Source of the DNA: a candidate division Zixibacteria bacterium RBG_16_53_22 | Lineage (GTDB): Bacteria; Zixibacteria; MSB-5A5; UBA10806 | Direction of reading: 5' to 3' | Assembly: GCA_001775395.1 (NCBI GenBank) | Contig: MEWP01000140.1 | Coordinates: forward strand, 1,208-42,112 | Length of the DNA stretch: 40,905 bases | In this document: in pieces, positions 3,975 through 38,086 of the stretch | How the letters are laid out: every line of letters starts with the position of its first letter | Numbering within the stretch: position 1 is the first letter of the stretch | Program-made: the position numbers and the translations under genes | The notes under the pieces: model-generated | Database searches by the model: none | The model's input: the letters and a program-made list of their open reading frames with translations, nothing else | What the model was told of the DNA's origin: nothing

Positions 3975-3982
3975 AACTCCTC

Positions 3983-16474: not shown

Positions 16475-16519
16475 CATTAGTGTGGTCGTGAACCATTTTT
16501 GATACAGGTGCTCCTTGCC

Positions 16520-20491: not shown

Positions 20492-20498
20492 GGTCACA

Positions 20499-21248: not shown

Positions 21249-21261
21249 AAGGTATCATGAT

Positions 21262-22368: not shown

Positions 22369-23417
22369 TGAAAAAAGCGGCGTTGGTAGTAGGAACCAGG
22401 CCTCAGTTTGTTAAAACCGCCCCCTTGACTCTCGAGTTGGGGCGGTTTTTCCAGATGGTCTTGATCCACACGGGCCAGCATTACGATTTCATGATGTCGA
22501 AGAGCTTTTTCGGCGAGCTCGGCATACCCGACCCCGATTACCATTTGGAGGCAGCCAAATCGTTATCTGGAGACGGGATCGGGAAAATGATCGACCGGCT
22601 GGAGTCGATCCTATCGTATGAAAAGCCCGACCTCGTGATCGTGGTTGGAGATACCAATTCCACGCTGGCGGGAGCGCTGGCCGCGGTTCGCCTTCGGCTG
22701 CCGTTGGCCCATGTCGAGGCCGGTGTCCGCGCGTTGGATAAAAAACTCCCCGAACAGATCAATAGGGTCATGACCGATGCCGTGGCCGATTATTTCCTCT
22801 GCCCGACCCCGTCGGCGGTGCAGAATCTCAAGCGTGAGGGTAAATGCGACCATATCTACGATACCGGCGATGTCATTTACGATTGTCTCCGTTCCTTTTT
22901 TGAAAGAATACCCGTGAAGCCGGAAAGCTTCGAATCGTTGCCCAATCGATTCGCGTTAGCAACCATCCATCGGGCCGAGGCGGTCGATAACAAAGAGAAT
23001 CTGAAAAGTGTCCTCATTTCCCTGGAAAGCGCGAATTTGCCGGTTATCTTTCCGGTCCATCCGAGAACCAGGAAGAGGATTGAGGCTTTCGGTCTTTGGG
23101 GGAATATGCCTGGCAATGTTAGATTCACCGATCCGCTGGGATATCTGGATATCTTGTCGCTGATAAAGAGATCGGAATTCGTAGTCACCGACTCCGGCGG
23201 CGTACAGAGGGAGGCTGTTTTTCTTGGCAAACCGGTCCTCGTCGCCAGGCCCGAGACCGAGTGGCGGGAGTTGGAGGAAAATCACTGGCTTAGGGTCGCC
23301 GGGTATTCATTCGATCTGTCTGGTGGTGTCGATACGGAAATCGGAAATCGGGGCGTCCTGGAGCATCTCACCCGGCCGGCTTCAGCCGAGATGGCTCGAA
23401 TATTAGCCGGCCTGTAA
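22368..23417 (+). CDS. UDP-GlcNAc 2-epimerase (non-hydrolysing), WbpI-like
   Basis: A 349-aa WecB/WbpI-family epimerase with the GTRPQFVKTAPL start, HTGQHYD, VVGDTNSTLAGA, HVEAGVRALDKKLPEQINR and TDSGGVQREAVFLGKPVLV. The ETEW that follows resembles WbpI-type enzymes that act on 2,3-diacetamido sugars more than the TERPE of WecB. In the Wbp/Wlb pathway it inverts C2 of UDP-GlcNAc3NAcA to UDP-ManNAc3NAcA. Location directly behind the dehydrogenase, acetyltransferase and aminotransferase supports that role; plain UDP-ManNAc synthesis remains possible. Confidence 0.9.
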   Translation: MKKAALVVGTRPQFVKTAPLTLELGRFFQMVLIHTGQHYDFMMSKSFFGELGIPDPDYHLEAAKSLSGDGIGKMIDRLESILSYEKPDLVIVVGDTNSTLAGALAAVRLRLPLAHVEAGVRALDKKLPEQINRVMTDAVADYFLCPTPSAVQNLKREGKCDHIYDTGDVIYDCLRSFFERIPVKPESFESLPNRFALATIHRAEAVDNKENLKSVLISLESANLPVIFPVHPRTRKRIEAFGLWGNMPGNVRFTDPLGYLDILSLIKRSEFVVTDSGGVQREAVFLGKPVLVARPETEWRELEENHWLRVAGYSFDLSGGVDTEIGNRGVLEHLTRPASAEMARILAGL

Positions 23418-23430
23418 GACGCGTGGCGCA

Positions 23431-24507
23431 ATGTACCATATGAATTCATCAGAGAGACTTCATATCTGTTTATTCGCCGATGCGCGCTCTGTCCATACAC
23501 GCCGTTGGGTCAGGGGATTGCGTGGTCTTGGCCACGATGTTGACCTTATCACCTTGAAGAAGGATCCTGAATTCGATATCGGCGGAATAGACCTGGGCGC
23601 ATCGGGAAAACTGGCATATTTGACCAAAATTCGGGCCTTGCGGCGCGAGGTAAGGAGGCTGGCCCCCGACATTTTCCATGCCCATTACGCCTCGAGCTAC
23701 GGATACCTGGCCAGTTTTGTGAATCACCCAAGAAAGGTGGTGTCCGTCTGGGGAAATGATTTAATCGAGTTTCCCAGGAGAAATCCATTCTTCAGGATGA
23801 TTATCAAACGTTCGTTGGCAAGCGCTCATCATATTACGGCGACAAGCGAGTTCTTGAAGGCCGTCACATCCAATTTCGAAATTGGACCTGTCCCCATCAC
23901 GGTGATCCCGTTTGGTATTGATTTGAATCTGTTCGAATTTTCCGAGCGACATGATGGCGGCACGACCAGGATCGGCATCGCCAAGCATCTTCATCCGATG
24001 TATGGCTTGGATTATCTTATCAAGGCCTTTGAGGAGATATCGCGGGGCCGTTTGGACCTCGAGCTTCTCATCGTCGGCAAGGGGCCGTCGGAGAATGAAT
24101 ATCGAGCCCTTGCAAGGCATTTGGGCCTTGGAAACAAGGTCAAATTCATGGGAGCCTTGCCCCATGAAAAAGTCGCGCAATTCCTCGCGACATTAGATAT
24201 ATTTGCAATGCCGTCCATTTGCGAAGAGGCGTTCGGTGTGGCGGCATTAGAGGCCTCGGCCACGGGATTGCCGGTAGTCGCCACCAGGGTGGGAGGCATA
24301 CCGGAAGTTGTCGTCGATTGTGAGACCGGGTTACTGGTTGAAAGAAAGGATGTCAGCCAATTGGCGCAGGCAATTCTAAAGCTTGTTAATGAACCGGAAT
24401 TGCGCCGCAAGATGGGGCGGGCCGGGCGCAAGTTTGTCGAGGAAAAATACAGGTGGGAGGATAACCTGCGCGCCATGCGCGACCTGTATTATCGAATGAT
24501 GTCATGA
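23431..24507 (+). CDS. Glycosyltransferase family 4
   Basis: A 358-aa GT-B enzyme. The N-terminal half has FADARSVHTRRWVRGLRGLG and HAHYASSYGYLA; the C-terminal nucleotide-binding half has the GT4 E-x7-E motif region CEEAFGVAALEASATGLPVV and ATRVGGIPEVV. It should transfer a sugar from a nucleotide donor with retention at the cytoplasmic membrane. The donor is unknown. ATG 23440 is an alternative start three residues in. It is distinct in sequence from the two GT4 genes behind it. The stop overlaps the next start as ATGA. Confidence 0.9.
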   Translation: MYHMNSSERLHICLFADARSVHTRRWVRGLRGLGHDVDLITLKKDPEFDIGGIDLGASGKLAYLTKIRALRREVRRLAPDIFHAHYASSYGYLASFVNHPRKVVSVWGNDLIEFPRRNPFFRMIIKRSLASAHHITATSEFLKAVTSNFEIGPVPITVIPFGIDLNLFEFSERHDGGTTRIGIAKHLHPMYGLDYLIKAFEEISRGRLDLELLIVGKGPSENEYRALARHLGLGNKVKFMGALPHEKVAQFLATLDIFAMPSICEEAFGVAALEASATGLPVVATRVGGIPEVVVDCETGLLVERKDVSQLAQAILKLVNEPELRRKMGRAGRKFVEEKYRWEDNLRAMRDLYYRMMS

Positions 24508-25718
24508 GAATTCTGATTGTCACCCAATATTTCTATCCTGAACCGGGCGCCGCCACCAACCGGCTCCTCTCATTCGCCAGAGGCCTGGCCAGGAATGGCC
24601 ATGACATCACTGTCCTGTGCGAATTTCCCAGTTACCCATCCGGCGTTCTGGCTCGCCAGTATCGATTCAAGTTATTCAAGATAGAGAGATTCGAGAATTT
24701 CCGGATAGTCCGGGCCTTCATTCTGCCTACCACCAGATTCGGCATCCTGTCGAGACTATTGAATTACGCCAGCTACCTTTTCTCCTCGTTTGTGGTCGGG
24801 CTGTTCCTGAGGCGGCCGCATATCATGATCGCCTCCTCGCCGCCGCCGACGGTCGGGCTGAGCGCCGCCACATTGAGCTTCCTCAAGATGGTCCCGCTAA
24901 TCGGCGATATCCGTGATCTCTGGCCGGAATACGCTATCGCCATCGGAGAGCTGAAGAGCAAAATGGGAATCATAAGCGGACGGCTCACGGAGAGGATTTT
25001 CTACCGGCGCTGTATTGCCTTTATCACCATATCCGAGGGATTGAAAAACTACCTCGAGAAAAAAAACAAAGGCAAAAAAATCTTCATCGTCATGAACGGC
25101 TCCTCCATACCCGATATGCCGTCATATGCCGATCAGCGGGCTAACTGTTTCGCTGGCAATCCGATAAATGTCTGCTATGCCGGAGTCGTGGGCCTGCTAC
25201 AGCCGATTCAGGATATTGTCGATGCCGCGCAGATTACCATGAGGGATGATTCGATCGTCTATACAATCATTGGCGATGGTGTCAAGCGCGAAGCCCTGGA
25301 GAATCAGGTGCTCAGCAGAAACCTTTCCAATATCACATTCACGGGAGCCCTGCCGCTGCCGGAAACGCTCGACTTACTGCTAAAATCTGATGTGGCCGTG
25401 GTGCCTCTCTTGAATATCGAGCATTTCAAGAGCGCGCTGCCCTCGAAATTTTTCGATTACATGGCCCTGGGGCTGCCGATAATTCTCGGTGTCGACGGTG
25501 AAGCGCGCAGCATTCTCGAAAAACACAGCACCGGGATTTATTACCAGCCTGGCTGCCCTCATGACCTGGTCGCCAAGATCAGATGGCTGCAGTCGAATCC
25601 CGACAAGGCCAGAGCCATGGGAATGGCCGGCAGGGAATTGGTATACAAAAGCTACTCCAGATCGGAGTTAGCCGAAAAGATGGAAAAGATAGTTTCCGAA
25701 CTAATTCGAGCCAAGTAG
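24504..25718 (+). CDS. Glycosyltransferase family 4, WbuB-like (copy 1)
   Basis: A 404-aa GT-B enzyme related to WbuB-type transferases (N-acetyl-fucosaminyl and similar). Markers are MRILIVTQYFYPEPGAATNR at the start, GDIRDLWPEYAIAIGELKS, CYAGVVGLLQPIQDIVDAA, IGDGVKREAL and LPSKFFDYMALGLPIILGVD. It is the same length as the next gene and shares all these segments, so the two arose by tandem duplication. Substrate unknown; the related second copy could add the neighbouring residue in the repeat unit. Confidence 0.9.
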   Translation: MRILIVTQYFYPEPGAATNRLLSFARGLARNGHDITVLCEFPSYPSGVLARQYRFKLFKIERFENFRIVRAFILPTTRFGILSRLLNYASYLFSSFVVGLFLRRPHIMIASSPPPTVGLSAATLSFLKMVPLIGDIRDLWPEYAIAIGELKSKMGIISGRLTERIFYRRCIAFITISEGLKNYLEKKNKGKKIFIVMNGSSIPDMPSYADQRANCFAGNPINVCYAGVVGLLQPIQDIVDAAQITMRDDSIVYTIIGDGVKREALENQVLSRNLSNITFTGALPLPETLDLLLKSDVAVVPLLNIEHFKSALPSKFFDYMALGLPIILGVDGEARSILEKHSTGIYYQPGCPHDLVAKIRWLQSNPDKARAMGMAGRELVYKSYSRSELAEKMEKIVSELIRAK

Positions 25719-25727
25719 CGATTTCCG

Positions 25728-26942
25728 ATGCGAATATTGATTATAACGCAGTACTTCCATCCCGAACCTGGGGCGCCGGCGAACCGGCTCCTTTCTTTCG
25801 CCCGGGGTTTCGCCGCCAAAGGGCATCAGGTTACTGTCCTATGCGAGTTTCCCAACTATCCGACCGGCAGATTGGCTAAGGGGGATCGGTTCAGGTTTTG
25901 GCGCAAAGAAAAGCTCGAGAATTTCGAAATAGTCAGATCATTCGTAATACCCACTCGACGGTCGAGCGTCGCGTTGCGCCTTGTCAATTACTGGAGCTTC
26001 ACGCTCTCGTCTTTTCTGGTGGGTCTATTCTTGAAGCGGCCTGACCTAATCCTGGTTTCCTCTCCGCCCCTTTTTGCCGGACCGGCGGCGGTCTGGCTAA
26101 GCTCTCTGAAACGCGCTCCCATCGTTTCGGATATTCGTGATCTATGGCCAGAGGATGCCATAATGATGGGCCAGCTCAAGAGCCGGATAGCGATCCAGGG
26201 GGGACGGGCCACGGCCAAACAACTTTACCGTAAGTCTTCATTTATTATTACTATATCGGAAGGACTTAAAGAAAAACTTGAGACGATGGCCCAGGGCAAA
26301 GAAGTGCATGTCGTTGTTAACGGCTCGTCCGTTCCGGACCTCTGGTCGGGTATGGAGTGCCGTCGTCGATTTCAAGGCGCGCCTATCACGGTCTGCTACG
26401 CCGGCACGCTGGGGTTGGGACAGCCCATAGAGGATATTGTCGAGGTGGCGTCCGCCACAAGGGATGACAAATCAATAAAGTATTTAATTGTCGGCGATGG
26501 TGTCAAGAGGCAGAGCCTGATGGCTTTGGCCGCGGGAAAGGGTCTCGATAATATTAGCTTTGCGGGAGGGGTTTCATTTGAAACATCGATCGAATTATTA
26601 GACGGTTCCGATATCGCCATCGTGTCGCTTATCGGCCGGGAAATATTCCAGAGCGCCATACCATCCAAGTTCTTTGATTGCATGGCATTGGGCTTACCTG
26701 TTATATTGGGTGTCGATGGCGAAGCGAGAGTGATCCTGGAGGAAAGTAATACCGGACTGTACTATCGCTCAGGCGATTGGCGTGACCTATTAGACAAAAT
26801 TGTATTCTTGAAAGGCAATCCCGAGATTGCCAGGAAGCTTGGAGAAAACGGCCGTAAGTTGGTCTGGAGCCGATACAGACGCTCCGACCTGGCGGCCCAA
26901 TTGGAGTCATTGATACAAAATCGCTTTTCTAAGAGGATTTAG
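25728..26942 (+). CDS. Glycosyltransferase family 4, WbuB-like (copy 2)
   Basis: A 404-aa paralogue of the preceding gene, 9 bp downstream. It carries MRILIITQYFHPEPGAPANR, SDIRDLWPEDAIMMGQLKS, CYAGTLGLGQPIEDIVEVAS, VGDGVKRQSLMALA and IPSKFFDCMALGLPVILGVD. The two copies are colinear but clearly diverged throughout, including in the acceptor-side N-terminal half, consistent with different acceptors. A cytoplasmic-face transferase of the surface-glycan repeat unit is likely. Confidence 0.9.
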   Translation: MRILIITQYFHPEPGAPANRLLSFARGFAAKGHQVTVLCEFPNYPTGRLAKGDRFRFWRKEKLENFEIVRSFVIPTRRSSVALRLVNYWSFTLSSFLVGLFLKRPDLILVSSPPLFAGPAAVWLSSLKRAPIVSDIRDLWPEDAIMMGQLKSRIAIQGGRATAKQLYRKSSFIITISEGLKEKLETMAQGKEVHVVVNGSSVPDLWSGMECRRRFQGAPITVCYAGTLGLGQPIEDIVEVASATRDDKSIKYLIVGDGVKRQSLMALAAGKGLDNISFAGGVSFETSIELLDGSDIAIVSLIGREIFQSAIPSKFFDCMALGLPVILGVDGEARVILEESNTGLYYRSGDWRDLLDKIVFLKGNPEIARKLGENGRKLVWSRYRRSDLAAQLESLIQNRFSKRI

Positions 26943-26953
26943 TTCGTTTGCAT

Positions 26954-27787
26954 ATGTCTAATATCATTAATGCATTCACTATCGATTTCGAAGATTGGTA
27001 TCAGGGGCTGGAAATACACAAGGTCGAGACATGGCACAAATTCGAATCGCGTATCGAGCGCAACTGCCTGAAGCTTCTCGAGATTCTCAAGGCCCATGAT
27101 ATCAGAGCGACATTTTTTGTTTTGGGCTACCTGGTGGAAAAACATCCCAAACTGCTAAAGATGATTCACGAGCTGGGGCATGAGATCGGCTCGCACGGAT
27201 ATTCCCACACCCAGGTTTTCCGTTTGACCAGGGAGCAGTTCAACGATGAGATCGCGCGCACGACTGACGCCATATACAAGATTACCTGCAAACAACCGCT
27301 GGGCTTCCGGGCGCCGATTTTCTCAATTGTCAGGGATTCCTACTGGGCGCTCGATGTCCTGGCCGAGAACGGCTATAAGTACGATTCGAGCATCTATCCC
27401 ACTTTCAACTATCGCTACGGGATGATAAAGGCCAATCGTTTCCGCCACGAGATCACCACCGAATCTAACCGCAAGATTATCGAGATACCGGTGGCCACAG
27501 CCAGGTTCCTGCGAGTGAATCTTCCTGTCGGCGGCGGCGCCTATTTCAGGATCTGGCCTTACGCTGTCACAAGATGGGCCTTTCGCAATCTCAACAAGCA
27601 GGGCCGGCCGGGCGTGTTCTATATGCATCCCTGGGAGATCGACCCCGACCAGCCGAAAATCGAATTACCGATGCGATTGTCTCTGACACATTATCACCGG
27701 CTGGGCTCGACCGAAAAGAAACTGCATAAGCTCCTTGACGATTTCAAATTTACTTCGATGTCCGAGGTTCTCGGACTCGATTATTGA
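26954..27787 (+). CDS. Polysaccharide deacetylase of the XrtA-associated type
   Basis: A 277-aa NodB-fold deacetylase. Metal and catalytic residues are visible: D11 and E13-D14 in TIDFEDWYQ, RATFFVLG at 51-58, and H81/H85 in EIGSHGYSH, with GFRAPIFS later and YMHPWEIDPDQP near the C terminus. The NAxTxDxEDwyQ start and HPWEID tail match the subfamily often found with exosortase/EPS loci. It removes N-acetyl groups from glycan intermediates. There is no signal peptide, so it probably acts on the cytoplasmic side, for instance on a lipid-linked precursor. ATG 26954 is preferred over the in-frame TTG 26948. Confidence 0.88.
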   Translation: MSNIINAFTIDFEDWYQGLEIHKVETWHKFESRIERNCLKLLEILKAHDIRATFFVLGYLVEKHPKLLKMIHELGHEIGSHGYSHTQVFRLTREQFNDEIARTTDAIYKITCKQPLGFRAPIFSIVRDSYWALDVLAENGYKYDSSIYPTFNYRYGMIKANRFRHEITTESNRKIIEIPVATARFLRVNLPVGGGAYFRIWPYAVTRWAFRNLNKQGRPGVFYMHPWEIDPDQPKIELPMRLSLTHYHRLGSTEKKLHKLLDDFKFTSMSEVLGLDY

Positions 27788-27794
27788 GGAATGT

Positions 27795-28349
27795 GTGGGA
27801 AAAGAAAAAAGGTCGCCGGCGGTTTTCCTTGATCGCGACGGGGTAATTATCGTGGAAAAGAATTTTCAGGCCGACCCCAATGATATCGAATTCATCCCCG
27901 GATCGGTTGAGGGGCTGTTGAAATTGAATCCGAAATATCTCAAAGTTGTGGTTTCGAACCAGTCCGGTATCGCCAGGGGATATTTCAGCCATGACGAAGC
28001 CGTGGCGGTGAATCAGGCAGTGGATGAAAAACTCAGCCTCTCGGGAATAAGAATAGACGCCTGGTATTTTTGCCCGCATGGGCCGGATGACGGCTGTGAC
28101 TGCAGGAAGCCCCGGCCCGGCCTTATCATGAAAGCCGCGGATGAACTTGATTTGGAGCTGTCCGCAAGCTGGATTATCGGCGATAAATCGTCCGACATAG
28201 GAGCCGGAACTGCGGCCGGGATCAGGACCATCCTTGTTAAAACCGGCTACGCCGGAAAGGAGCCGGGCGCCGATGATTCAAAACCGGATTTCACTGCCGA
28301 TAATCTGTATTGTGCCATAGATATCATTAACAAGGGTGTTGGAATATGA
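27795..28349 (+). CDS. HAD-IIIA phosphatase, GmhB/HisB-N-like
   Basis: About 184 aa from the GTG at 27795, with GAGGA 4 nt upstream overlapping the previous stop; the frame is open further upstream. It has the DxD nucleophile in VFLDRDGVI (D13, D15), VVSNQSGIARGYFS, the zinc site CPHGPDDGCDCRKPRPG, and a IIGDKSSDIGAG motif IV. This layout is typical of D,D-heptose 1,7-bisphosphate 7-phosphatase (GmhB) and of the HisB phosphatase domain. No other heptose or histidine genes are near, so in this locus it may dephosphorylate another sugar phosphate. Its last four bases overlap the SDR gene. Confidence 0.83.
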   Translation: MGKEKRSPAVFLDRDGVIIVEKNFQADPNDIEFIPGSVEGLLKLNPKYLKVVVSNQSGIARGYFSHDEAVAVNQAVDEKLSLSGIRIDAWYFCPHGPDDGCDCRKPRPGLIMKAADELDLELSASWIIGDKSSDIGAGTAAGIRTILVKTGYAGKEPGADDSKPDFTADNLYCAIDIINKGVGI

Positions 28350-29305
28350 AGGTGCTTATCACGGGCGGGGCCGGGTTTATCGGCTCCCATCTGGCCGAGA
28401 AATTGCTCGAGCAGGGCCATCATGTGTTTGCGGTCGACAACCTCTCGACCGGCAAGCTCGAAAATATCGTGCATCTGCGCGGCAATCCCGAGTTTGAATT
28501 TTTCGCCGGCACAATCATGGATGAAATCCTGATGGCGGAGATGATTTCGCAGTGCGAGACGATCTTTCACCTGGCGGCGGCGGTTGGGGTCAGGCTCATT
28601 ATCGACAAGCCGGTCGATACGATCGAGACGAATATCATGGGTAGTGAGATAGTCTTGAAACTGGCCAATCGCAGAAAGCGGAAGGTGATTATCACCTCGA
28701 CATCGGAGGTCTATGGCAAGAATGAGCAGGTGCCGTTCAAGGAATCCGACGATTCGGTGTACGGGCCGACCGTCAAATCGAGGTGGAGCTACGCCTGCTC
28801 CAAGGCTATCGATGAGTTTCTGGCGCTGGCGTATTATCGCGAGAAAAAGCTGCCGGTTGTGATAGTCAGGCTGTTCAATACTATCGGCGCCCGGCAGACA
28901 GGGGAATATGGCATGGTCGTTCCGACTTTTGTCAAGCAGGCCTTAATGGGGCACCCCCTGACGGTATTCGGCGACGGTTCCCAGAGCCGCTGTTTCACCA
29001 ATGTCAGGGACGTGGTCCGGGCAATGGTAAGTTTGGCCGAGAATCCGGAGGCTGTAGGGCAGGTCTATAATATCGGCAGCAGCGAAGTGATAACCATAAA
29101 CGACCTCGCCTGCCGGGTCAAGGAGCTCTGCGGTTCCAAATCGGAAATTCAATATATCCCTTATGACAAAGCATTCGAGGCCGGTTTTGAGGATATGTAC
29201 CAGCGCGTTCCGGATCTTCTCAAGATCCATGACGCGATCGGGTACAAGCCGATGATAAGCCTGGATCAGTCAATTCAGGAGATTATCGAATACTACAAGC
29301 GATGA
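28346..29305 (+). CDS. NAD-dependent nucleotide-sugar epimerase/dehydratase (extended SDR)
   Basis: A 319-aa extended short-chain dehydrogenase. The NAD site is ITGGAGFIGSHLAEKLL (5-21) with Asp31; the active site has T118/S119 in ITSTSEVYG and the YxxxK pair Y149/K153 in WSYACSKAIDEF. VIVRLFNTIGARQTGEYGMV and VFGDGSQSRCFTNVRDVVRA mark the UDP-sugar binding half. It could be a UDP-glucose/glucuronate 4-epimerase, a UDP-glucuronate decarboxylase or a dehydratase; the sequence does not decide. It supplies an NDP-sugar for the surface glycan. It is coupled to both neighbours by 4-bp overlaps. Confidence 0.87.
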   Translation: MKVLITGGAGFIGSHLAEKLLEQGHHVFAVDNLSTGKLENIVHLRGNPEFEFFAGTIMDEILMAEMISQCETIFHLAAAVGVRLIIDKPVDTIETNIMGSEIVLKLANRRKRKVIITSTSEVYGKNEQVPFKESDDSVYGPTVKSRWSYACSKAIDEFLALAYYREKKLPVVIVRLFNTIGARQTGEYGMVVPTFVKQALMGHPLTVFGDGSQSRCFTNVRDVVRAMVSLAENPEAVGQVYNIGSSEVITINDLACRVKELCGSKSEIQYIPYDKAFEAGFEDMYQRVPDLLKIHDAIGYKPMISLDQSIQEIIEYYKR

Positions 29306-31545
29306 GCGCTTATTATATCGGTTCATTCATCGTCCCATTTGTAATGACACTGCTCCTGATTCCCCTGGTGCGGCGAGTGGCGCTCAATATCGGCTTCATC
29401 GACACCCCCTCTGCCAGAAAGATTCACAGCCGCCCCATTCCGCTGGGTGGCGGCATTCCGATTTTCCTGGGATTCATTCTTGTTTTCATATTTTCTTCAT
29501 CTGTTCTCGTGTTCACCGGGATCAAGGGAGCCATGGGAATATTATCCGGATCCGTTTTTATATTTCTGATCGGGATATATGATGACGCTTTCGATATGGG
29601 AGCCCTGCCCAAGATGATTGGGCAGGTCATTGCGGCCATCATCTTTTTATCATTCACCGAGGGGCCGCCGCCGACAGTATCGTACCCCGTTTATCTGGCC
29701 CTGGGGATAGCCTGGATAGTCGGCATACAAAATGCGCTCAATTTCCTGGATAACATGGATGGCCTTTGTGGCGGTGTGGCCATGTCGATTGCGCTGGGCC
29801 TGGGGGCCTTATTCGTCCTGAAAGACATGTCGATTTATGCTATTATCTGTTTTGCCCTGGCCGGCGGCGCCCTGGGATTTCTGCGCTACAATCTTCCGCC
29901 GGCGAGCATATTTCTGGGGGATACCGGCAGCCTCCTATTCGGATTTGCACTCTCCTGTCTGGCCGTGATACACATTGATACCTCCCGCGACATGGCGGCC
30001 GCCCTGGCGCCTTTTATAATTATGGCCTACCCGATTTTCGATATGACCTTCGTGACCATAAGCCGCCTTAACGAGGGGAGAAAGGTTTATATCGGCGGCA
30101 AGGACCACTCCTCGCACAAAATCAATTTCATGGGCTTAACCCGCAAGGCCACGGTCTTTGCAATTTACGCTATCAACCTGCTTCTGGTAATATTCGGAAT
30201 CACGCTTTATTTCATCTCCGGCTCGCCTTATCCGATGCTCCTTGTTGTTGCGCTGGCATTCGCGCTTGCTTTCGTGGGCACCCACCTATATAAGAACCTC
30301 CTCTTTCTCTGGCTGAGAGCGCGGTTTCTGATCGTTGATTTTGTGGCAGTCAATCTATCTTTGCTCCTTTACATCTGGATCAGATACGCGCTGGGACCGG
30401 CCGGCATGATGCCGGCCCTTGCCTTTTCCGACCTGGCCTGGATCAACATATTCTGGATCATGCTGTTTTCGGCCGGCGGCCTCTATGAGCTTCAGCCGGA
30501 GTCCAGGCTTCGAGACCACCTCGGCCTTCTGGCCCGACTGATAATATTTGGGTCGGCCATATTCGCCCTGGCGAATTATAAGCCTGGTTCCGGATTCCAG
30601 GTCTCGCTGCAAGCGCTATTGCTGTTTTCCATAATTCTGTTTTGCGTTAACGGTCTATTGCGCGCAAGCCTCTATCTCTCGACGGGGAGGAAGCTGTCCG
30701 GTGGACATGCCAGGATGGCCGCTATCATCGTGCGGCTTTCGCCGTTACGTGAAACCTTCGCCCTTGAGCCGTTCGATGCAAATTACGAAATCATAGGCTA
30801 TGCCGGAATTCCCGGGTCGTGCGATTTCGAATATCTCGGCGATGTCGATTCTCTGGGACGCATCTTGCACGACCGCAGGGTCGGCCGGGTGATACTTGCC
30901 CTGCCCGATGATTATTTCGAGAATCTGACATCGGTTTTCGGCTCGGCCTTTTTCATGGATACGCGTTTCTTGACAATTAAACCATCGGCGCCCAATTTGA
31001 AAGGCCTGCGCAAATTGCCGACCAGGTTTAAGGGCATTCATTTTATCGCGCCGAGCCATCGACGAATTTTCGTTCGCATAATGAAACGTATCGGGGATTT
31101 CGTCATATCGGTAATCGCGCTGATTTTTTCGCTGCCGTGGATAGCATATAAAATCTTGTATGCGCGGACAAAAAATGTTAAGTTTGCGCAGAATATCAGC
31201 TTTATCGGCTTGGGTGAAAAGGAGAAAGCGGGCCGGTGCCTCATTAAAGGCCGGCACTTCCGATTCCGCAATCCCTGGGGCCTGCTTTCCGTATTGAAGG
31301 GCGATATGAGCCTGGTCGGAACCACGATTTCAACCGGCGCCGAAAGAATCGATGGTTCATGGCGCAAGTTCTGTGTCAAACCCGGACTTTTCGGGCCCGG
31401 GTATGACGGCCACACTACCAGGGAGCAATTCGAATTCGATTTGGAATATCTGGAACGCCCCTCGTTGATATATGAACTGGCCATACTGGTCGCGCAGACA
31501 ACGAGGGTTTCTCGCATAAAGAGTATTGGAAATCAAGATGCTTGA
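29302..31545 (+). CDS. Fused polytopic (WecA-type) and degenerate monotopic (WbaP-type) phosphoglycosyl transferase
   Basis: A 747-aa membrane protein. Residues 1-330 are a WecA/MraY-family transferase with about ten helices and its catalytic motifs: IYDD (D94, D95), NALNFLDNMDGL (144-155), FLGDTGS (204-210) and the His motif KDHSSHK (267-273). It should load a sugar-1-phosphate on undecaprenyl phosphate. Residues about 336-455 add four helices, 465-590 a nucleotide-binding-like domain, and 590-735 a bacterial sugar transferase region as in WbaP (RIMKRIGDFVISVIAL, LLSVLKGDMSLVG, VKPGLFGPG, DLEYLERPSLIYELAIL). The WbaP part lacks the KFRSM/Asp-Glu catalytic stretch and the PRP after SLVG, so it is probably inactive. 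The stop overlaps serS by 8 bp. Confidence 0.85.
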   Translation: MSAYYIGSFIVPFVMTLLLIPLVRRVALNIGFIDTPSARKIHSRPIPLGGGIPIFLGFILVFIFSSSVLVFTGIKGAMGILSGSVFIFLIGIYDDAFDMGALPKMIGQVIAAIIFLSFTEGPPPTVSYPVYLALGIAWIVGIQNALNFLDNMDGLCGGVAMSIALGLGALFVLKDMSIYAIICFALAGGALGFLRYNLPPASIFLGDTGSLLFGFALSCLAVIHIDTSRDMAAALAPFIIMAYPIFDMTFVTISRLNEGRKVYIGGKDHSSHKINFMGLTRKATVFAIYAINLLLVIFGITLYFISGSPYPMLLVVALAFALAFVGTHLYKNLLFLWLRARFLIVDFVAVNLSLLLYIWIRYALGPAGMMPALAFSDLAWINIFWIMLFSAGGLYELQPESRLRDHLGLLARLIIFGSAIFALANYKPGSGFQVSLQALLLFSIILFCVNGLLRASLYLSTGRKLSGGHARMAAIIVRLSPLRETFALEPFDANYEIIGYAGIPGSCDFEYLGDVDSLGRILHDRRVGRVILALPDDYFENLTSVFGSAFFMDTRFLTIKPSAPNLKGLRKLPTRFKGIHFIAPSHRRIFVRIMKRIGDFVISVIALIFSLPWIAYKILYARTKNVKFAQNISFIGLGEKEKAGRCLIKGRHFRFRNPWGLLSVLKGDMSLVGTTISTGAERIDGSWRKFCVKPGLFGPGYDGHTTREQFEFDLEYLERPSLIYELAILVAQTTRVSRIKSIGNQDA

Positions 31546-32812
31546 TCCGAAATTCATCAGACAAAACGTCGATCTTGTCAGGCAGGCAATCGCCAACAAA
31601 GGGGAGAAGGCCGACCCGGGCAGATTCATCGAGGCTGATGACAGGCGTCGGGAAATCATCGGGACCGTCGAGAAACTGAAAGCCGAGCGCAACGCGGCCT
31701 CGAACGAGATCTCGAAGATCAAAAAGGCCGGCGGCGATGCCACCGACATGATCGAGAAGATGCGAACAGTCGGCGACAATATCGCCGCGCTTGACAAGGA
31801 ATTACTGGTTGTCGAGGAAAGCATCAAGGAGATCCTGCTTTGGATACCGAATATTCCGCATCAAACTGTGCCGGTTGGGGCCACCGACGCCGATAATCTG
31901 GAGGTGCGTCGCTGGGGCGACTGCCGGCAATTCGATTTTCAGCCCAGGCCGCATTGGGAGATTGGGGAGATGATCGGCGGGCTGGATATCCGGGGTGGGG
32001 CCAAAGTCAGCGGCTCCGGATTCTATTTTCTGACCGGTCCCGGCGCAAGTCTGGAAAGAGCCCTGATTAACTTCATGCTCGACCTGCATACCTCCCAGCA
32101 CGGCTATACCGAGGTTTTGATCCCTTACCTGGTCGGCAGCGACGCCATGAGGGGTACCGGCCAAATACCGAAGTTGGCCGAGGATATGTATTATCTGGAT
32201 AAGGACGATCTTTACCTTATCCCCACCGCCGAGGTTTCGCTGACCAATATCCACGCGGGAGAGATCCTTCAGCCGGACAAGCTTCCCGTGAAGTTCGTGG
32301 CGTTCTCGCCATGTTTCAGGCGCGAGGCAGGCTCTTACGGCAAGGAGACCCGCGGTATCGTGCGCGTGCATCAATTCCACAAAGTGGAAATGGTCAAGAT
32401 TGTGGAGCCGGAAACCTCATACAATGAGCTCGAGTCGCTGGTGGCCAACGCCGAGACCGTGCTTCAACGCTTGCAACTGCCATATCGGGTAAGGCTCTTA
32501 TGCACCGGCGACCTCTCGTTTGCGGCCGCCAAGTGCTACGACCTCGAGGTTCATGCCCCCGGCATGAATACCTGGCTGGAGGTTTCCTCGTGCTCCAATT
32601 TTGAGGATTTTCAGGCGCGGCGAATGAACCTTCGGTTCCGGCCGGAGAAGGGCGGCAAGACCGCGTTCCCGCACACGCTCAATGGCTCGGGGCTGGCGTT
32701 GCCGCGGACCGTGGCGTCGATTTTGGAAAATTACCAGACTCGCTCGGGCGAGGTGACGGTCCCAGAGGTTCTCAGGCCATATATGGGAGGTATCGAGACC
32801 CTGAAGGGTTAG
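31538..32812 (+). CDS. serS: Seryl-tRNA synthetase
   Basis: A 424-aa class II synthetase. An N-terminal tRNA-binding coiled coil (about 25-105) is followed by the catalytic domain: TAEVSLTN, motif 2 FRREAGSYGKETRGIVRVHQ, FHKVEMV and motif 3 NGSGLALPRTVASILENYQ. Length and order are standard. ATG 31538 (MLDPKFIRQN) is the normal start; a TTG 12 bp upstream is in frame. It overlaps the phosphoglycosyl transferase gene by 8 bp and has no good SD of its own, so its expression may depend on translation from upstream. Confidence 0.97.
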   Translation: MLDPKFIRQNVDLVRQAIANKGEKADPGRFIEADDRRREIIGTVEKLKAERNAASNEISKIKKAGGDATDMIEKMRTVGDNIAALDKELLVVEESIKEILLWIPNIPHQTVPVGATDADNLEVRRWGDCRQFDFQPRPHWEIGEMIGGLDIRGGAKVSGSGFYFLTGPGASLERALINFMLDLHTSQHGYTEVLIPYLVGSDAMRGTGQIPKLAEDMYYLDKDDLYLIPTAEVSLTNIHAGEILQPDKLPVKFVAFSPCFRREAGSYGKETRGIVRVHQFHKVEMVKIVEPETSYNELESLVANAETVLQRLQLPYRVRLLCTGDLSFAAAKCYDLEVHAPGMNTWLEVSSCSNFEDFQARRMNLRFRPEKGGKTAFPHTLNGSGLALPRTVASILENYQTRSGEVTVPEVLRPYMGGIETLKG

Positions 32813-32816
32813 CGTG

Positions 32817-34055
32817 ATGCCGCGCGATCTGACAAAACACAATGTCAATTTACACGTGAGCTATTCGCGATTTTTCCGGTGGTTCCTGGTGTTTGGAGTC
32901 GTGGCTGTTATTGCGCTGTTTGTTTATTTCAATCAGGCGGTTGTGCGCGATATCCGCAAGGACGCCACCAGGCTGAGCCAGATGTATGCCCGGCTTATCG
33001 AGTATGGGGCCAGCGAGGCCTCCGACCCGGAAGTCATAAATTTCATATTCGATAACATTATCACCAAGGTCAATTTCCCGATCATCGTGACCGATCGCAA
33101 TGGGATACCGGCCGCCTGGACCATGGAATACAGCATCAGCGACACAACGACCCGGACCCGTCAGGAACTTTACAGGCTCATCGAGCAGTTCGACAGCCAG
33201 AATCCGCCGATCGAAATCAGGTCCGACACCGCCCTTATCAGCGTGCTTCACTATGGCAATTCGGATCTCATTTGGAAGCTGCGGATTATACCGCTGGTCG
33301 AAATTTCAGTCATAACCGTGTTTCTTTTCGTGGCCTTTATCGGTTTCAGGAATATCAAGAAGTCCGAGCAGCGCTCCATCTGGGTCGGCATGGCCAAAGA
33401 GACGGCCCATCAATTGGGCACGCCCATAACATCGCTGATGGGATGGGTCGAGCTTCTCAAAGTGAGGCATGAGGAAGGCAAGATTGCCCTGTCGTCGGAA
33501 TTTCAGAATGGCAATTTCGGCGATATGACGAGCAAGATGATGGGCGATCTCAGACGGTTGGATCGGATCGCCACCCGTTTCGGGCAGATCGGTTCGGCGC
33601 CGGAGTTATCCGAAAACAACATCAATGAGATTGTCAAGGACGTGATCGAATATTTTCGCATGCGGCTTCCCGCGGGAGGCTTGACCATCACCGCCATCTA
33701 TGGTGTCGTGCCCGATATCAAGATAAATCCCGAGCTCCTGCGCTGGGTGATCGAGAATCTCATGAAAAACTCGATGGAGGCCACGAGTTCGAAAACCGGC
33801 CATATTCAAGTTTCGACCTCTTTTAATCCCGAGCAGAAGCGTATAATTATTGCGGTCGAGGATAACGGCCGAGGCATACCTTATTCGGAGCAGAAACGAG
33901 TCTTTTCGCCCGGGTTCACGACCAAGAAGCGCGGCTGGGGCCTGGGCTTGACGCTGGCGCGCAGAATAGTGGAGGAGTATCATGGAGGCAGGATCAGCCT
34001 GAAGTCATCCGAACCGGACGTTAGGACCGTGTTCGCTGTGGAATTACCGGTGTAA
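32817..34055 (+). CDS. porY: Sensor histidine kinase, PorY-like
   Basis: A 412-aa inner-membrane kinase. TM1 is at about 21-39, a roughly 120-residue sensor segment follows, TM2 is at about 158-177, then the H-box MAKETAHQLGTPITSLMGW with His198, and the ATPase domain with ENLMKNSMEAT (N box), VEDNGRGIP (G1), FSPGFTTKKRGWGLGLTLAR and a final FAVELPV. The AKETAHQLGTP H-box is the form I know from PorY and its Bacteroidota relatives. It directly precedes porX with no intergenic base, supporting a cognate pair that controls T9SS genes. ATG 32817 has AAGGG 8 nt upstream; a GTG three bases earlier is possible. Symbol assigned by similarity and context. Confidence 0.85.
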   Translation: MPRDLTKHNVNLHVSYSRFFRWFLVFGVVAVIALFVYFNQAVVRDIRKDATRLSQMYARLIEYGASEASDPEVINFIFDNIITKVNFPIIVTDRNGIPAAWTMEYSISDTTTRTRQELYRLIEQFDSQNPPIEIRSDTALISVLHYGNSDLIWKLRIIPLVEISVITVFLFVAFIGFRNIKKSEQRSIWVGMAKETAHQLGTPITSLMGWVELLKVRHEEGKIALSSEFQNGNFGDMTSKMMGDLRRLDRIATRFGQIGSAPELSENNINEIVKDVIEYFRMRLPAGGLTITAIYGVVPDIKINPELLRWVIENLMKNSMEATSSKTGHIQVSTSFNPEQKRIIIAVEDNGRGIPYSEQKRVFSPGFTTKKRGWGLGLTLARRIVEEYHGGRISLKSSEPDVRTVFAVELPV

Positions 34056-35618
34056 ATGATGCAAAAAGATGATGCCAAGACAATTCTGTGGGTCGATGAT
34101 GAGATCGATCTTCTTGCGGCCCATATAATTTTCCTCAAGGACAAGGGGTATAACCTGCTCGAGGCTTCCAATGGGGATGACGCCCTCGAGATCGTCTCCA
34201 GGGGAGGTGTCGACCTGGTAATGATCGATGAGATGATGCCGGGCCGCGACGGCCTGGCCACGCTCGAGGGAATCAAGGATATAAACCCGCACCTGCCGGT
34301 TATCATGGTGACCAAGTCGGAGGAAGAGCACCTCATGAACGAGGCCATCGGCAAGAAGATTGACGACTACCTGACCAAGCCGGTCAACTTGAGCCAGGTT
34401 CTTTCGGCTATCAAGAAGATCCTCGAACGTCAGAAATTGACCGAGAACACGCTGACCCGGGAATTCGTCCAGGATTTTTCGCGCATCAACATGCAGCTTT
34501 CCGGGCCGCTCCAGTGGCAGGATTGGATCGATATACATGTCAAGCTGTCGGAGATCGATCTGGAGTTGGAGAAATTCCGCGATGTCGGGCTCAAGCAATC
34601 GCATCAGGACCTGAAGAAAGTGGCCAGCGCGGAGTTTGGCGGATTCGTTATCAAGAATTACAGGCGCTGGCTGCAATCCTCCGATGGCCCGCCGCTTTCG
34701 GTGGGGGTCGTCGAAAAACATGTGGCGCCCATTTTGAGGCAGGGCAAGCAGACATTTTTCATCGTGGTTGACTGCATGCGATTGGATCAGTGGCTCATGA
34801 TCGAGCCGATTCTGGGGGAATATTTCAACATAAAGAAAGATTATTATTATTCGATCCTGCCCACGGCCACGCCGTTCTCGCGCAACAGCATTTTCGCCGG
34901 GGAGTTTCCCGACACCGTGGCCGGTATCTACCCCGATCTCTGGGAGCGTGGCGCCAATGAGGCCAGCCGCAACCGCCACGAAAGGCAGCTTCTGGACCGC
35001 CAACTGGCCAAGCTCGGCCTCAGTTTAAAAAGCGAGCCCAAGTATGTCAAGGTGCTCGATTTCGATGAAGGTCAGAACCTGGCCAAGAAAATACAAAGCT
35101 ATTCCACGGCGCCGCTCGTATCGGTTGTCTACAACTTCGTCGATATTCTTGTGCACGGCCGCTCGGAATCGGAAATTCTGCAGGAGGTGGCCCCCAACGA
35201 GGCCGCCTTCCGTTCCCTGATGCGCTCCTGGTTTGAGCATTCCCATATGTTCGAAATGCTGCGGAAGCTCGCCGAGTGGGATTGCGAGATAGTCATTACC
35301 ACCGATCATGGCTCGGTTATCGGCACTCGCGGGGCGCTGGCCTACGGCAAGAAAGATACGTCGACGAATCTCCGATATAAGTACGGAGACAACCTCAACT
35401 GTGACCCGAAGCAGGCCTGGCTCATAAAGGAGCCGAAAGATCTTCGCCTGCCGACCTGGGGCCTGGCAACGACCTATATAATCGCGTTAGAAGACTACTA
35501 CTTTGTCTATCCCACTAAGTATTCGGAATACCGGCGACAATATTTAAACAGTTTCCAGCATGGCGGCATAAGCCTGGACGAGGTGATCCTGCCGGTAATT
35601 ACACTTAAGCCGAGGTAG
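34056..35618 (+). CDS. porX: PorX-like response regulator with PglZ domain
   Basis: A 520-aa two-domain protein. Residues 1-125 are a CheY-like receiver: acidic pair D14/D15 in LWVDDEIDLL, phospho-acceptor D58 in VMIDEMMPG, T86, and K108 in YLTKPV. A helical linker follows, then from about 225 a PglZ domain of the alkaline phosphatase superfamily: FFIVVDCMRLDQW with D239, the nucleophile region ILPTATPFSRNSIFAGEFP (T272), a VVYNFVDILVHGR segment and ITTDHGSVIG. Length and architecture match PorX of Porphyromonas, where it regulates T9SS with PorY; PorX PglZ domains are reported to hydrolyse nucleotide phosphodiesters. The neighbouring kinase and the T9SS cargo in this window support the call over a phage-defence PglZ. 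Confidence 0.9.
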   Translation: MMQKDDAKTILWVDDEIDLLAAHIIFLKDKGYNLLEASNGDDALEIVSRGGVDLVMIDEMMPGRDGLATLEGIKDINPHLPVIMVTKSEEEHLMNEAIGKKIDDYLTKPVNLSQVLSAIKKILERQKLTENTLTREFVQDFSRINMQLSGPLQWQDWIDIHVKLSEIDLELEKFRDVGLKQSHQDLKKVASAEFGGFVIKNYRRWLQSSDGPPLSVGVVEKHVAPILRQGKQTFFIVVDCMRLDQWLMIEPILGEYFNIKKDYYYSILPTATPFSRNSIFAGEFPDTVAGIYPDLWERGANEASRNRHERQLLDRQLAKLGLSLKSEPKYVKVLDFDEGQNLAKKIQSYSTAPLVSVVYNFVDILVHGRSESEILQEVAPNEAAFRSLMRSWFEHSHMFEMLRKLAEWDCEIVITTDHGSVIGTRGALAYGKKDTSTNLRYKYGDNLNCDPKQAWLIKEPKDLRLPTWGLATTYIIALEDYYFVYPTKYSEYRRQYLNSFQHGGISLDEVILPVITLKPR

Positions 35619-35682
35619 GTCGGCGAGCAATCCCGTCTGATTGTAGTTGTGCTAACTCTGAACGCGCGTTATCATTACATCC

Positions 35683-36126
35683 GTGAAACAGCTGTTATTG
35701 ATCGAATCGGAATCCGATGCGGAAACCGAGGCGATAGCCGTGGAATTATCGTCGATCTTAAGATCCGGTGACGTGGTCGCATTGTATGGCCAGCTTGGCG
35801 CCGGCAAAACTACCTTTGTCAGGGGGCTGGCCCGGGGCCTCGGGTGCCGCCAGACAGTCAAAAGCCCCACGTTCAACCTGATAAACGAATATCCCGGCGA
35901 CATGCCATTGTATCATATCGATTTCTACAGGCTCGAAAGTCATTCGGAAATCGATGACCTTGGATGGACTGACTATCTCGATGGCGATGGCGTGGTTGCT
36001 ATCGAATGGGCCGACAAGCTGGGGAATTCATTGCCGCACAACAGATTCGATGTCTTGATCTCTTTCGGCGGGCCGGAAATCAGGATTGTGGAGGTCATTG
36101 CCGTTGGTGATCCTGGGAATAGATAG
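35683..36126 (+). CDS. tsaE: tRNA threonylcarbamoyladenosine biosynthesis ATPase TsaE
   Basis: A 147-aa P-loop protein with YGQLGAGKTTF (35-45), SPTFNLINEY, LYHIDFYRLE and the VAIEWADKLG segment, all standard for TsaE, which drives the TsaBD complex in t6A37 synthesis on ANN-decoding tRNAs. The start is GTG 35683; no ATG is available in the region. It overlaps tsaB by about 20 bp, the usual tsaE-tsaB-rimI arrangement. A 64-bp gap without a clear promoter separates it from porX. Confidence 0.94.
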   Translation: MKQLLLIESESDAETEAIAVELSSILRSGDVVALYGQLGAGKTTFVRGLARGLGCRQTVKSPTFNLINEYPGDMPLYHIDFYRLESHSEIDDLGWTDYLDGDGVVAIEWADKLGNSLPHNRFDVLISFGGPEIRIVEVIAVGDPGNR

Positions 36127-36772
36127 TTCGGACGATTACCTCTCGGTAGGGCTTTCCTCGGAGGGGAGAATAATATTCTCAAGATCATCCCTACCGCAGG
36201 CACAGGGCAAGACGATGCTGCACACGTTTATATTATCCGTGTTGTCCCAGGCAGGTCATAAAATATCAGATCTGGAGGGTGTAGCGGTCGCCATCGGCCC
36301 CGGGTCATTTACCGGCCTGAGAGTGGGGCTGGCCGCGGCCAAGGGGATCTGCTGGGCGACTAAACTTCCGCTGGCCGGCGTCTCATCCTTGATGGCAATA
36401 GCGCACTGCGCCAATATCGCCGCCAAAGAGGTGGTCGCAGTCAAAGATGCCAGACGCGAGGAGTTCTATTTCGGCGGGTTCACAAGGCTCGATCGGGGAT
36501 ACGGGCAGATTATTCCGGACTCGATCGGCAGCGCTGGCGACATTTTCGCGCTTGCGGATAAAGGGTATGCGCTTATTGGCCCCGGGATCGAGGCGCTGGC
36601 CAAAAACCCGGGCTGCCCGACTATCAGTGACGGCGGGTATGATCGCGAGGGGATTGGGGGAGCTGTCGCCCTGCTTGGTGAGGAGCGCTTGAAGGCTGGG
36701 AAAGTGCTTGATTTAGCCAATTCGATCCCTAATTATATCAGGGTGCCAAGACCGAGGGAATGGAAGCCATAG
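36107..36772 (+). CDS. tsaB: tRNA threonylcarbamoyladenosine biosynthesis protein TsaB
   Basis: About 221 aa, an ASKHA-fold partner of TsaD in t6A synthesis. It begins VILGIDSSDDYLSVGL and contains the family's AIGPGSFTGLRVGLAAAKGI. GTG 36107 puts the ILGID strand at the N terminus as in the family; TTG 36104 is equally possible with GGAGG (36090-36094) at 9 nt. The 3' part, normally the most variable, is slightly short but complete. It lies between tsaE (overlapping) and rimI (3 bp). Confidence 0.92.
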   Translation: MILGIDSSDDYLSVGLSSEGRIIFSRSSLPQAQGKTMLHTFILSVLSQAGHKISDLEGVAVAIGPGSFTGLRVGLAAAKGICWATKLPLAGVSSLMAIAHCANIAAKEVVAVKDARREEFYFGGFTRLDRGYGQIIPDSIGSAGDIFALADKGYALIGPGIEALAKNPGCPTISDGGYDREGIGGAVALLGEERLKAGKVLDLANSIPNYIRVPRPREWKP

Positions 36773-36775
36773 GCG

Positions 36776-37219
36776 ATGCCGGATGTCGTCATTCGAAAAA
36801 TGGCCGAGCGGGATTTGATGGAGATTGTCGCCCTCGAAAAAGAGATATTCGCCGATCCCTGGAGCTACGAGGCATTCAGAACAGATATCCAAAATCCCAT
36901 GGCCTTTCCGCTTGCGGCCGTGATAGGGGAATCGATCGCCGGGTATTCATGCCTTTATATTGTGGCAGGAGAGATGCAGATAGGAAATTTCGCCGTGGCC
37001 CCCGATCACAGAGGACGGGGAATTGCCAAATTACTAATGAACCGGATACTCGAAATAGCCAAAGAGCGAGAATGTGATTTGATTTTTCTCGAGGTCAGGG
37101 AATCCAACCAACCGGCCAGGAGCCTTTATGAATCGTACGAATTTAAGGTAGTCGGACGGCGGGTCGGATATTACCGGAATCCTTATGAAAATGCCATTCT
37201 CATGACCAGGGAGCTTTGA
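36776..37219 (+). CDS. rimI: Ribosomal-protein-alanine N-acetyltransferase RimI
   Basis: A 147-aa GNAT protein with the RimI pattern: EKEIFADPWSYEAF near residue 22, the acetyl-CoA loop VAPDHRGRGIAKLLMNRIL, LEVRESNQPARSLYESYEF and a C-terminal GRRVGYYRNPYENAILMTREL region including the YY-P motif. RimI acetylates the N-terminal Ala of ribosomal protein bS18 and sometimes other proteins. Position behind tsaB is typical. The stop overlaps the accD ATG by one base. Confidence 0.93.
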   Translation: MPDVVIRKMAERDLMEIVALEKEIFADPWSYEAFRTDIQNPMAFPLAAVIGESIAGYSCLYIVAGEMQIGNFAVAPDHRGRGIAKLLMNRILEIAKERECDLIFLEVRESNQPARSLYESYEFKVVGRRVGYYRNPYENAILMTREL

Positions 37220-38079
37220 TGGTTGATTGGTTTAATCGCGCGCGCAAGGGCACGCCCAGCGCCGAAAAACGCGATATACCCGACGGTGTCTGGACAAAGT
37301 GCCAGTCTTGCAACGAAATTCTCACTGTCATGTCGCTCGATAAGAATTTCTGGGTCTGTCCCAAATGCGAATTTCATTTTCGTATCCCCGCCGTTTCCTA
37401 TATCAGCCTGCTTATCGATCCCGATACTTTCGAGGAGTTCGATGCTGACCTGGTCTCGATGGACCCGCTCGAATTCAAGGACCTGAAAAAATATCCCGAG
37501 AGAATTGCTTCTGCTCGCAAGAAGACCGGCCGCAACGACGCCGTAATTTGCGGGATGGGGAAAATCGAGGGTATCGAAATTTCTTTTTGTGTCATGGATT
37601 TCGAATTCATCGGCGGCAGCATGGGAAGCGTGGTTGGAGAGAAGGTGGCCCGCGCCATCGAACGCTCCATAAGCAAGGGAGTTCCCCTGGTCATCGTCTC
37701 CTGCTCGGGGGGAGCGCGCATGATGGAGGGGATACTCTCGCTCATGCAGATGGCCAAGACCTCGACCCTGCTGGCGATGCTGAATAAGCTGAAGATTCCA
37801 TTCATTTCGATTCTTACCAATCCCACCACGGCCGGCGTGATGGCCTCATACGCCTCGCTTGGCGATGTCATCATTGCCGAGCCCAAGGCCCTGCTCGGCT
37901 TTGCCGGGCCGAGGGTCATAGCGCAAACGATCGGTGGCGAGCTTCCGCCGGGATTTCAATCATCGGAGTTTTTCCGCGAGCACGGATTCCTCGACAAGAT
38001 CGTTTCCCGCCCGCAGCTCAAAAAGACGACGACTCAACTTCTGCAATACATGTGGCATCAAAACATCAATCAGACTTAG
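37219..38079 (+). CDS. accD: Acetyl-CoA carboxylase carboxyltransferase subunit beta
   Basis: A 286-aa protein with the N-terminal four-Cys zinc ribbon (C28, C31, C47, C50) and the crotonase-like core: MDFEFIGGSMGSVVGEK, IVSCSGGARMMEGILSLMQM, LTNPTTAGVMASYASLGDV and GFAGPRVIAQTIGGELPPGF. With AccA it transfers CO2 from carboxy-biotin to acetyl-CoA, the first step of fatty acid synthesis. ATG 37219 overlaps the rimI stop and has AGGGAG upstream. AccA, AccB and AccC are not in the window; the accD-folC pair is common in bacteria. Confidence 0.96.
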   Translation: MVDWFNRARKGTPSAEKRDIPDGVWTKCQSCNEILTVMSLDKNFWVCPKCEFHFRIPAVSYISLLIDPDTFEEFDADLVSMDPLEFKDLKKYPERIASARKKTGRNDAVICGMGKIEGIEISFCVMDFEFIGGSMGSVVGEKVARAIERSISKGVPLVIVSCSGGARMMEGILSLMQMAKTSTLLAMLNKLKIPFISILTNPTTAGVMASYASLGDVIIAEPKALLGFAGPRVIAQTIGGELPPGFQSSEFFREHGFLDKIVSRPQLKKTTTQLLQYMWHQNINQT

Positions 38080-38086
38080 GAAATAG

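Follow-up and report, generated by a model that had tools for sequence, protein, structure and literature searches.

One branch of the Zixibacteria, an uncultured bacterial phylum, encodes a protein in which two unrelated phosphoglycosyl transferase (PGT) folds are joined in one polypeptide: a polytopic PGT whose active site looks intact, and behind it a large monotopic PGT whose active site has been erased. The gene probably encodes, although we hold this with only moderate confidence, an initiating enzyme of surface polysaccharide synthesis in which the active polytopic half would be tethered to the inactive monotopic half as a platform for docking or control. Two known superfamilies are here combined in an arrangement that is both new and conserved, and that evolves in an unusual way. 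Our literature search, which did not extend to the principal paper on similarity networks of monotopic PGTs, found no description of a polytopic-monotopic PGT fusion.

The window, the whole stretch of DNA analyzed here, comprises 40,905 nt of Zixibacteria bacterium RBG_16_53_22 (GCA_001775395.1, MEWP01000140.1, positions 1,208-42,112, forward strand). The ORF 29302-31545 is a single, uninterrupted frame starting with ATG; its 5' end overlaps the upstream stop codon as ATGA (29302-29305), and its 3' end overlaps serS (ATG at 31538). The following features were assigned.

29302..31545, + strand: fusion gene, polytopic PGT plus pseudo large monotopic PGT, 747 aa
29302..30276, + strand: N-half, residues 1-325, WecA/MraY-type polytopic PGT (Pfam PF00953, conserved residues, model of a relative)
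30292..30705, + strand: C-half, WbaP-type N-terminal transmembrane bundle, residues ~331-468 (WbaP profile, conserved columns, hydropathy, model of a relative)
30706..31080, + strand: C-half, degenerate PF13727-like (CoA_binding_3) nucleotide domain, residues ~469-593 (profile, loop comparison)
31084..31542, + strand: C-half, monotopic-PGT domain, residues 595-747 (Pfam PF02397, motif table)
28346..29305, + strand: NAD-dependent epimerase/dehydratase, a frequent partner upstream of the fusion (~64-74% identity across families)
16499..28349, + strand: polysaccharide cluster, of which the fusion is the last gene
31526..39355, + strand: conserved downstream block SerS - histidine kinase - receiver/PglZ - TsaE - TsaB - RimI - AccD - FolC

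The cluster encodes Wza-like SLBB and Wzz-like proteins, a UDP-sugar oxidoreductase, an acetyltransferase, a DegT aminotransferase, three GT4 glycosyltransferases, WecB and an XrtA-type deacetylase (both above cut-off) and a GmhB-like phosphatase. The fusion was the sole PGT seen in this cluster. Other canonical monotopic PGTs are encoded elsewhere in the window genome, and a separate polytopic PGT that is widespread in the phylum sits at a different locus from the fusion. Several further observations concern the surroundings. Upstream of the cluster, a HAD-type phosphatase is fused to a GNAT acetyltransferase (12609-13793), and an 832 aa protein joins a sugar-1-phosphate nucleotidyltransferase to a phosphomannomutase/phosphoglucomutase (13852-16350). 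Wza- and Wzz-like genes are present in 16499-31545, and no evident Wzx flippase or Wzy polymerase was seen within the window. Two neighbouring, similar WcaI-like GT4 genes at 24504-26942 are an apparent tandem duplication; at this position the locus of genome G001 has one copy, and none is shown in the loci of G002-G004. Two proteins with Por secretion tails are encoded at 1899-5470.

The sequence-only reading of this stretch had placed a WecA/MraY motif set in the N-half, and the motifs are located where it put them: D94 D95, NALNFLDNMDGL at 144-155, FLGDTGS at 204-210 and KDHSSHK at 267-273. Profile searches likewise returned the expected families above their curated cut-offs, Glycos_transf_4 (PF00953) in the N-half (residues 78-223, E=7e-31, 107.8 bits, cut-off 27) and Bac_transf (PF02397) at the C-terminal end (residues 661-735, E=2e-10, 41.1 bits, cut-off 27). 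The core catalytic and Mg residues D94, D95, K104, N144, N147, D150, D153, N197 and D207 are identical in 17/17 complete members, and the window N-half has all of them together with the loop DHSSHK. The cut-off of the WecA equivalog TIGR02380 is not reached (107.5 of 326 bits); an MraY-like fold was obtained for the N-half of a modelled member of family f16, L073 (TM-score 0.65-0.77 to MraY). The N-half looks alive and is a putative UndP-dependent sugar-1-phosphate transferase. The HxxH loop of polytopic PGTs bears on substrate recognition. Since this loop differs between lineages (DHSSHK, DHAWDM, DSSPYR, NNSPRR), activity or specificity of the N-half may differ or be lost in some of them. In an incomplete draft of the same genus (L007, genome G001), the equivalent of D207 is a Ser (DLGSTGS) with a run of N upstream, which points either to a fault in sequencing or to an inactive N-half.

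The best Bac_transf stretch in the window covers only profile positions 94-176 of 179. A profile built from 18 C-halves aligned with the solved WbaP over its entire length, starting at the first membrane helix (E=1e-35), and also matched PglC (E=5e-32), whereas the lone window C-half gave no match in a phmmer search of the PDB. NCBIfam models of exopolysaccharide sugar transferases span residues 345-616, far under their cut-offs, and the cut-off of the subfamily TIGR03025 EPS_sugtrans is not reached (67.1 of 295.6 bits). The model of the window C-half has low confidence (mean pLDDT 57), and a member of f16 was modelled as a stand-in for the window protein (mean pLDDT 77); this one chain matches WbaP (E=1e-12), PglC (TM 0.80 to target) and MraY. 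The earlier claim of two unrelated PGT folds in one polypeptide is thus upheld by Pfam matches in both halves and by the full-length match of the C-half profile to WbaP; a C-half without significant resemblance to the bacterial sugar transferase family, named beforehand as a refutation, is not what the profiles show.

The scaffold of the C-half is well conserved. The transmembrane bundle residues D346, W385 and Y395 are invariant, and the re-entrant-helix signature KRxxD...P is kept in the window (K595, R596, D599, P612), its K, D and P being conserved at 100% among the fusions as well as among stand-alone homologues. GDMSLVG (667-673) and VKPG (692-695) are kept as well, in the WbaP layout that had been described from the sequence. 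In L036 numbering, D45, W92, Y102, K303, D307, P320, G403, G409, G437, Y463 and S468 are found in 100% of fusion C-halves, and K435 and D472 in 95%; D45, W92, Y102, K303, D307 and P320 served as markers of the membrane bundle and the re-entrant helix.

The catalytic positions give the opposite result. At the sites that read K[F/L]R[S/T]M, DELP and GPRP in 18 stand-alone homologues from the phylum, the window shows RCLIKG, RFRNPWGL and GTTI, which confirms that the KFR/Asp-Glu stretch and the PRP motif are missing from the monotopic part. An Asp-Glu dyad is present in 0/20 fusion C-halves and, as DELP, in 18/18 stand-alone large monotopic PGTs of the phylum. We also considered that the protein might be bifunctional, with sugar-phosphate transferred by both halves and Glu standing in for Asp as the nucleophile of the monotopic half. 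Families f5, f10, f14 and f16 do carry a Glu where the Asp would be, and KFR[VI]S or KFKVS is kept by members of f5, f10 and f16. However, in these families K, R, L, M or Y takes the place of the adjacent Glu, the entire catalytic segment is deleted in f1 (the family of the window) and f2, and the residues at the DPRxT, Gln, Asn and PRP arginine positions have for the most part disappeared. Catalysis by monotopic PGTs needs the Asp-Glu dyad and Mg (PMC10519829), and we regard a second activity as very improbable. The C-half is, as far as motifs and profiles can tell, a whole WbaP-type enzyme whose active site was erased selectively while the scaffold was retained.

PF13727 matches 13/18 C-halves and gives no match at E<=1 in the window C-half; despite this, the alignment of the family profile with WbaP spans the accessory domain. 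The Gly-rich loop is gone in f1 (IVRLSPLRE in the window) and its sister f2 (IYIKDKKAD style), while loops such as GTGEDA are retained in f14 and partly in f16 and f10. The C-half could be imagined as a feedback regulator, a UMP/UDP nucleotide sensor inhibiting the polytopic half in the manner of the PF13727 domain of WbaP. A polytopic PGT that uses a UDP-sugar also releases UMP, and both the retained loops and the 13 PF13727 matches fit such a sensor. In WbaP, the accessory domain is stabilised by UMP/UDP/UTP, and the full-length enzyme is inhibited by UMP with an IC50 of ~4 uM (PMC10942596). Against it stand the lost loop in f1 and f2 and the missing PF13727 match in the window, and nucleotide sensing alone leaves the retention of the whole re-entrant PGT domain unexplained; we judge it unlikely as the role of the C-half. 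Nucleotide feedback is plausible in the families that keep the loop (f14, partly f16 and f10) and less so in that of the window. The sequence-only reading had made the monotopic half a non-catalytic module of the active half, serving in regulation, sugar binding or partner docking. That reading is upheld in part: canonical catalysis is lost yet the half is conserved, and the polytopic residues are intact. Sugar binding is the weakest guess for the window, with signature and loop both gone in its family.

A profile search covering 133 Zixibacteria genomes of one class detected full-length fusions in 20 genomes and three more that are cut by contig ends (G033, G036, G132). The carriers belong to families f1, f2, f5, f10, f14 and f16 and include the single-contig genomes G003 and G004. 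In 18/19 relative loci inspected, serS lies 3' of the fusion (L074 is the exception), followed, where the contig continues, by histidine kinase - receiver/PglZ - tsaE - tsaB - rimI - accD - folC; the 5' side mostly shows an NAD-dependent epimerase together with a polysaccharide cluster of variable content. The fusion is also carried by named records of independent projects, which are Candidatus Zixiibacteriota. A contig scan with the linker/bundle/accessory alignment returned 10 named loci, all from Zixibacteria, which, resting on one peptide pattern, is weak evidence for absence elsewhere; with the window protein alone as query the scan gave no match. No record of the plasmid collection covers 80% of the query, the best matches shown being separate polytopic PGTs. 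Since the window genome is a draft (3.86 Mb, 169 contigs), an assembly or frameshift error might in principle have joined two genes. The search of related genomes that had been suggested as a check refutes such an artefact: the same fusion with the same neighbours occurs in ~23 genomes from independent projects, two of them on single contigs, and the probability of an error is negligible.

In families without the fusion, the slot 5' of serS holds a PglF-type dehydratase (CoA_binding_3 + Polysacc_synt_2) of ~780-845 aa (L111:9082-11424, L113:9423-11825, L115:4682-7048, L116:9255-11789, L117:9204-11543), the long N-terminal part of which resembles a doubled membrane bundle. The slot region of f18 encodes a 626-aa protein with membrane bundle, CBS-domain region and NAD epimerase (L118:3441-5318) beside a small canonical monotopic PGT (L118:2866-3459). 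On the other side of serS, the histidine kinase and the receiver + PglZ protein (window 32814-35618) adjoin the gene and are kept across the families sampled, in what we take to be a PorY/PorX-like layout as in regulators of type IX secretion. The receiver/PglZ block is present next to serS in genomes without the fusion too, and a functional tie between the fusion and the receiver/PglZ protein is pure speculation.

Beyond the sequence-only reading, the comparison revealed that the fusion is a conserved family of single origin, the halves of which have been swapped. Measured against sampled stand-alone relatives from the phylum, the fusions form one group in the C-half tree (support 100/100) and in the N-half tree (100/99), which is most simply explained by a single fusion event. 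When the tree is built from flanking genes (SerS, receiver/PglZ, AccD), every carrier falls within a clade of 18 (support 95/97), to which f4 and f13 belong as well; the genomes sampled from these two families lack the fusion. Carriers as a single clade are rejected on the flanking-gene sequences (p=0.0001), so that one gain and two losses or replacements are the simplest history.

In the close trio L016-L018, dN/dS is 0.29-0.33 for the C-half and 0.09-0.18 for the N-half, showing purifying selection on both halves in this one trio, with the C-half less constrained; the C-half is also the faster-evolving half in several pairs. These data bear on the idea that the C-half is a passive relic of an accidental fusion, decaying without function. 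Decay would fit the faster evolution in many pairs and the disappearance of both the active site and the KFR..DE segment, but the frame is open in six families, omega is ~0.3 in the trio, the scaffold residues are invariant and the C-half is still attached after exchanges of the N-half. We consider decay improbable.

These exchanges are seen in two pairs. G003 and G004 belong to one genus, and their proteins along the locus are 72-91% identical, with 90% for the epimerase, 46% for the N-half, 69% for the C-half and 88% for SerS. Where the gene begins, identity at the DNA level drops from 85% to 52%; it recovers ~1.1-1.2 kb into the gene, just past the junction. Between G054 and LJVD (f16), identity is 53% in the N-half, 77% in the C-half and 89% in SerS, with a step near residue 300-315. 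The N-half tree rejects the groupings G003+G004 (p-AU 0.0001) and G054+LJVD (p-AU 0.016), the C-half tree rejects the groupings favoured by the N-half (AU p 0.004 and 0.0008), and a flanking-gene tree (SerS+PglZ+AccD) sides with the C-half at both nodes. Because the trees of the halves conflict and the C-half tracks the flanking genes, the live half has undergone at least two replacements, with the dead half remaining bound to the locus. The class of the HxxH loop differs in both exchanged pairs (DHSSHR vs DHAWDM; NNSPRR vs DHSTHR), which would fit a switch to another donor sugar. Replacement of the live half beside a dead half that stays with the locus suggests that the C-half is a fixed docking or control platform, and lends indirect support to the partner docking proposed earlier. 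The exchange could also reflect the way in which polysaccharide loci diversify in general, breakpoints falling within the gene for reasons of homology only.

The full motif set of the N-half is common to the polytopic PGTs (WecA, TagO, WbpL, MraY; PF00953), but the members referred to stop after the polytopic domain and the fusion adds 400 residues. The locus resembles what we take to be WbpL-type initiation of HexNAc-primed O antigen, likewise with a polytopic PGT in a cluster that has diacetamido-sugar-like genes, an NAD epimerase lying immediately upstream of it; this is a lead only, and WbpL, unlike the fusion, is without a monotopic domain. As in the large monotopic PGTs (WbaP, WcaJ, EpsZ; PF13727 + PF02397), the C-half profile spans bundle, accessory and PGT domains; the C-half differs from them in having no Asp-Glu dyad, KFR or PRP, in sitting behind a polytopic PGT and, in the window, in an unrecognisable accessory-domain signature. 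The large monotopic PGT WbaP is a dimer with a regulatory accessory domain (PMC10942596), and EpsZ of Myxococcus is activated by direct binding of the response regulator EpsW (PMC12802240). EpsZ-EpsW indicates that the body of a monotopic PGT can be a docking and allosteric surface, although EpsZ is itself the active enzyme, whereas in the fusion the monotopic part is inactive and the polytopic half joined to it is the enzyme. On the basis of the WbaP dimer with its UMP-sensing accessory domain and of EpsZ switched by a response regulator, we propose the dead half as the part that provides the live half with oligomerisation and docking or control.

In the platform model, the N-half would transfer sugar-1-phosphate from a UDP-sugar to undecaprenyl phosphate and so start the polysaccharide of the cluster. 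The C-half, consisting of helix bundle, cytosolic domain and re-entrant-helix PGT domain, would have been kept after loss of its active site as a membrane-anchored platform, offering an oligomer or docking surface through which the enzyme could be held at, or switched by, the downstream glycosyltransferase or export machinery. The platform, bound to the locus, would carry the partner contacts and the live half would be replaceable by recombination, so that a swap may change the priming sugar without the assembly line being rebuilt. We infer the platform role of the C-half as well as its exact role as chassis. That a dead enzyme of one PGT superfamily acts as a fixed chassis for a swappable cartridge from an unrelated one, the first sugar of a surface polysaccharide being changed by swapping half a gene, is a tentative proposal, to which we give slightly less than even chances.

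The purpose of the large non-catalytic parts of monotopic PGTs is the wider issue here: the fusion isolates that function and makes it testable. With their swapped live half and locus-bound dead half, these proteins are natural chimaeras that could separate the choice of sugar from docking to the pathway.
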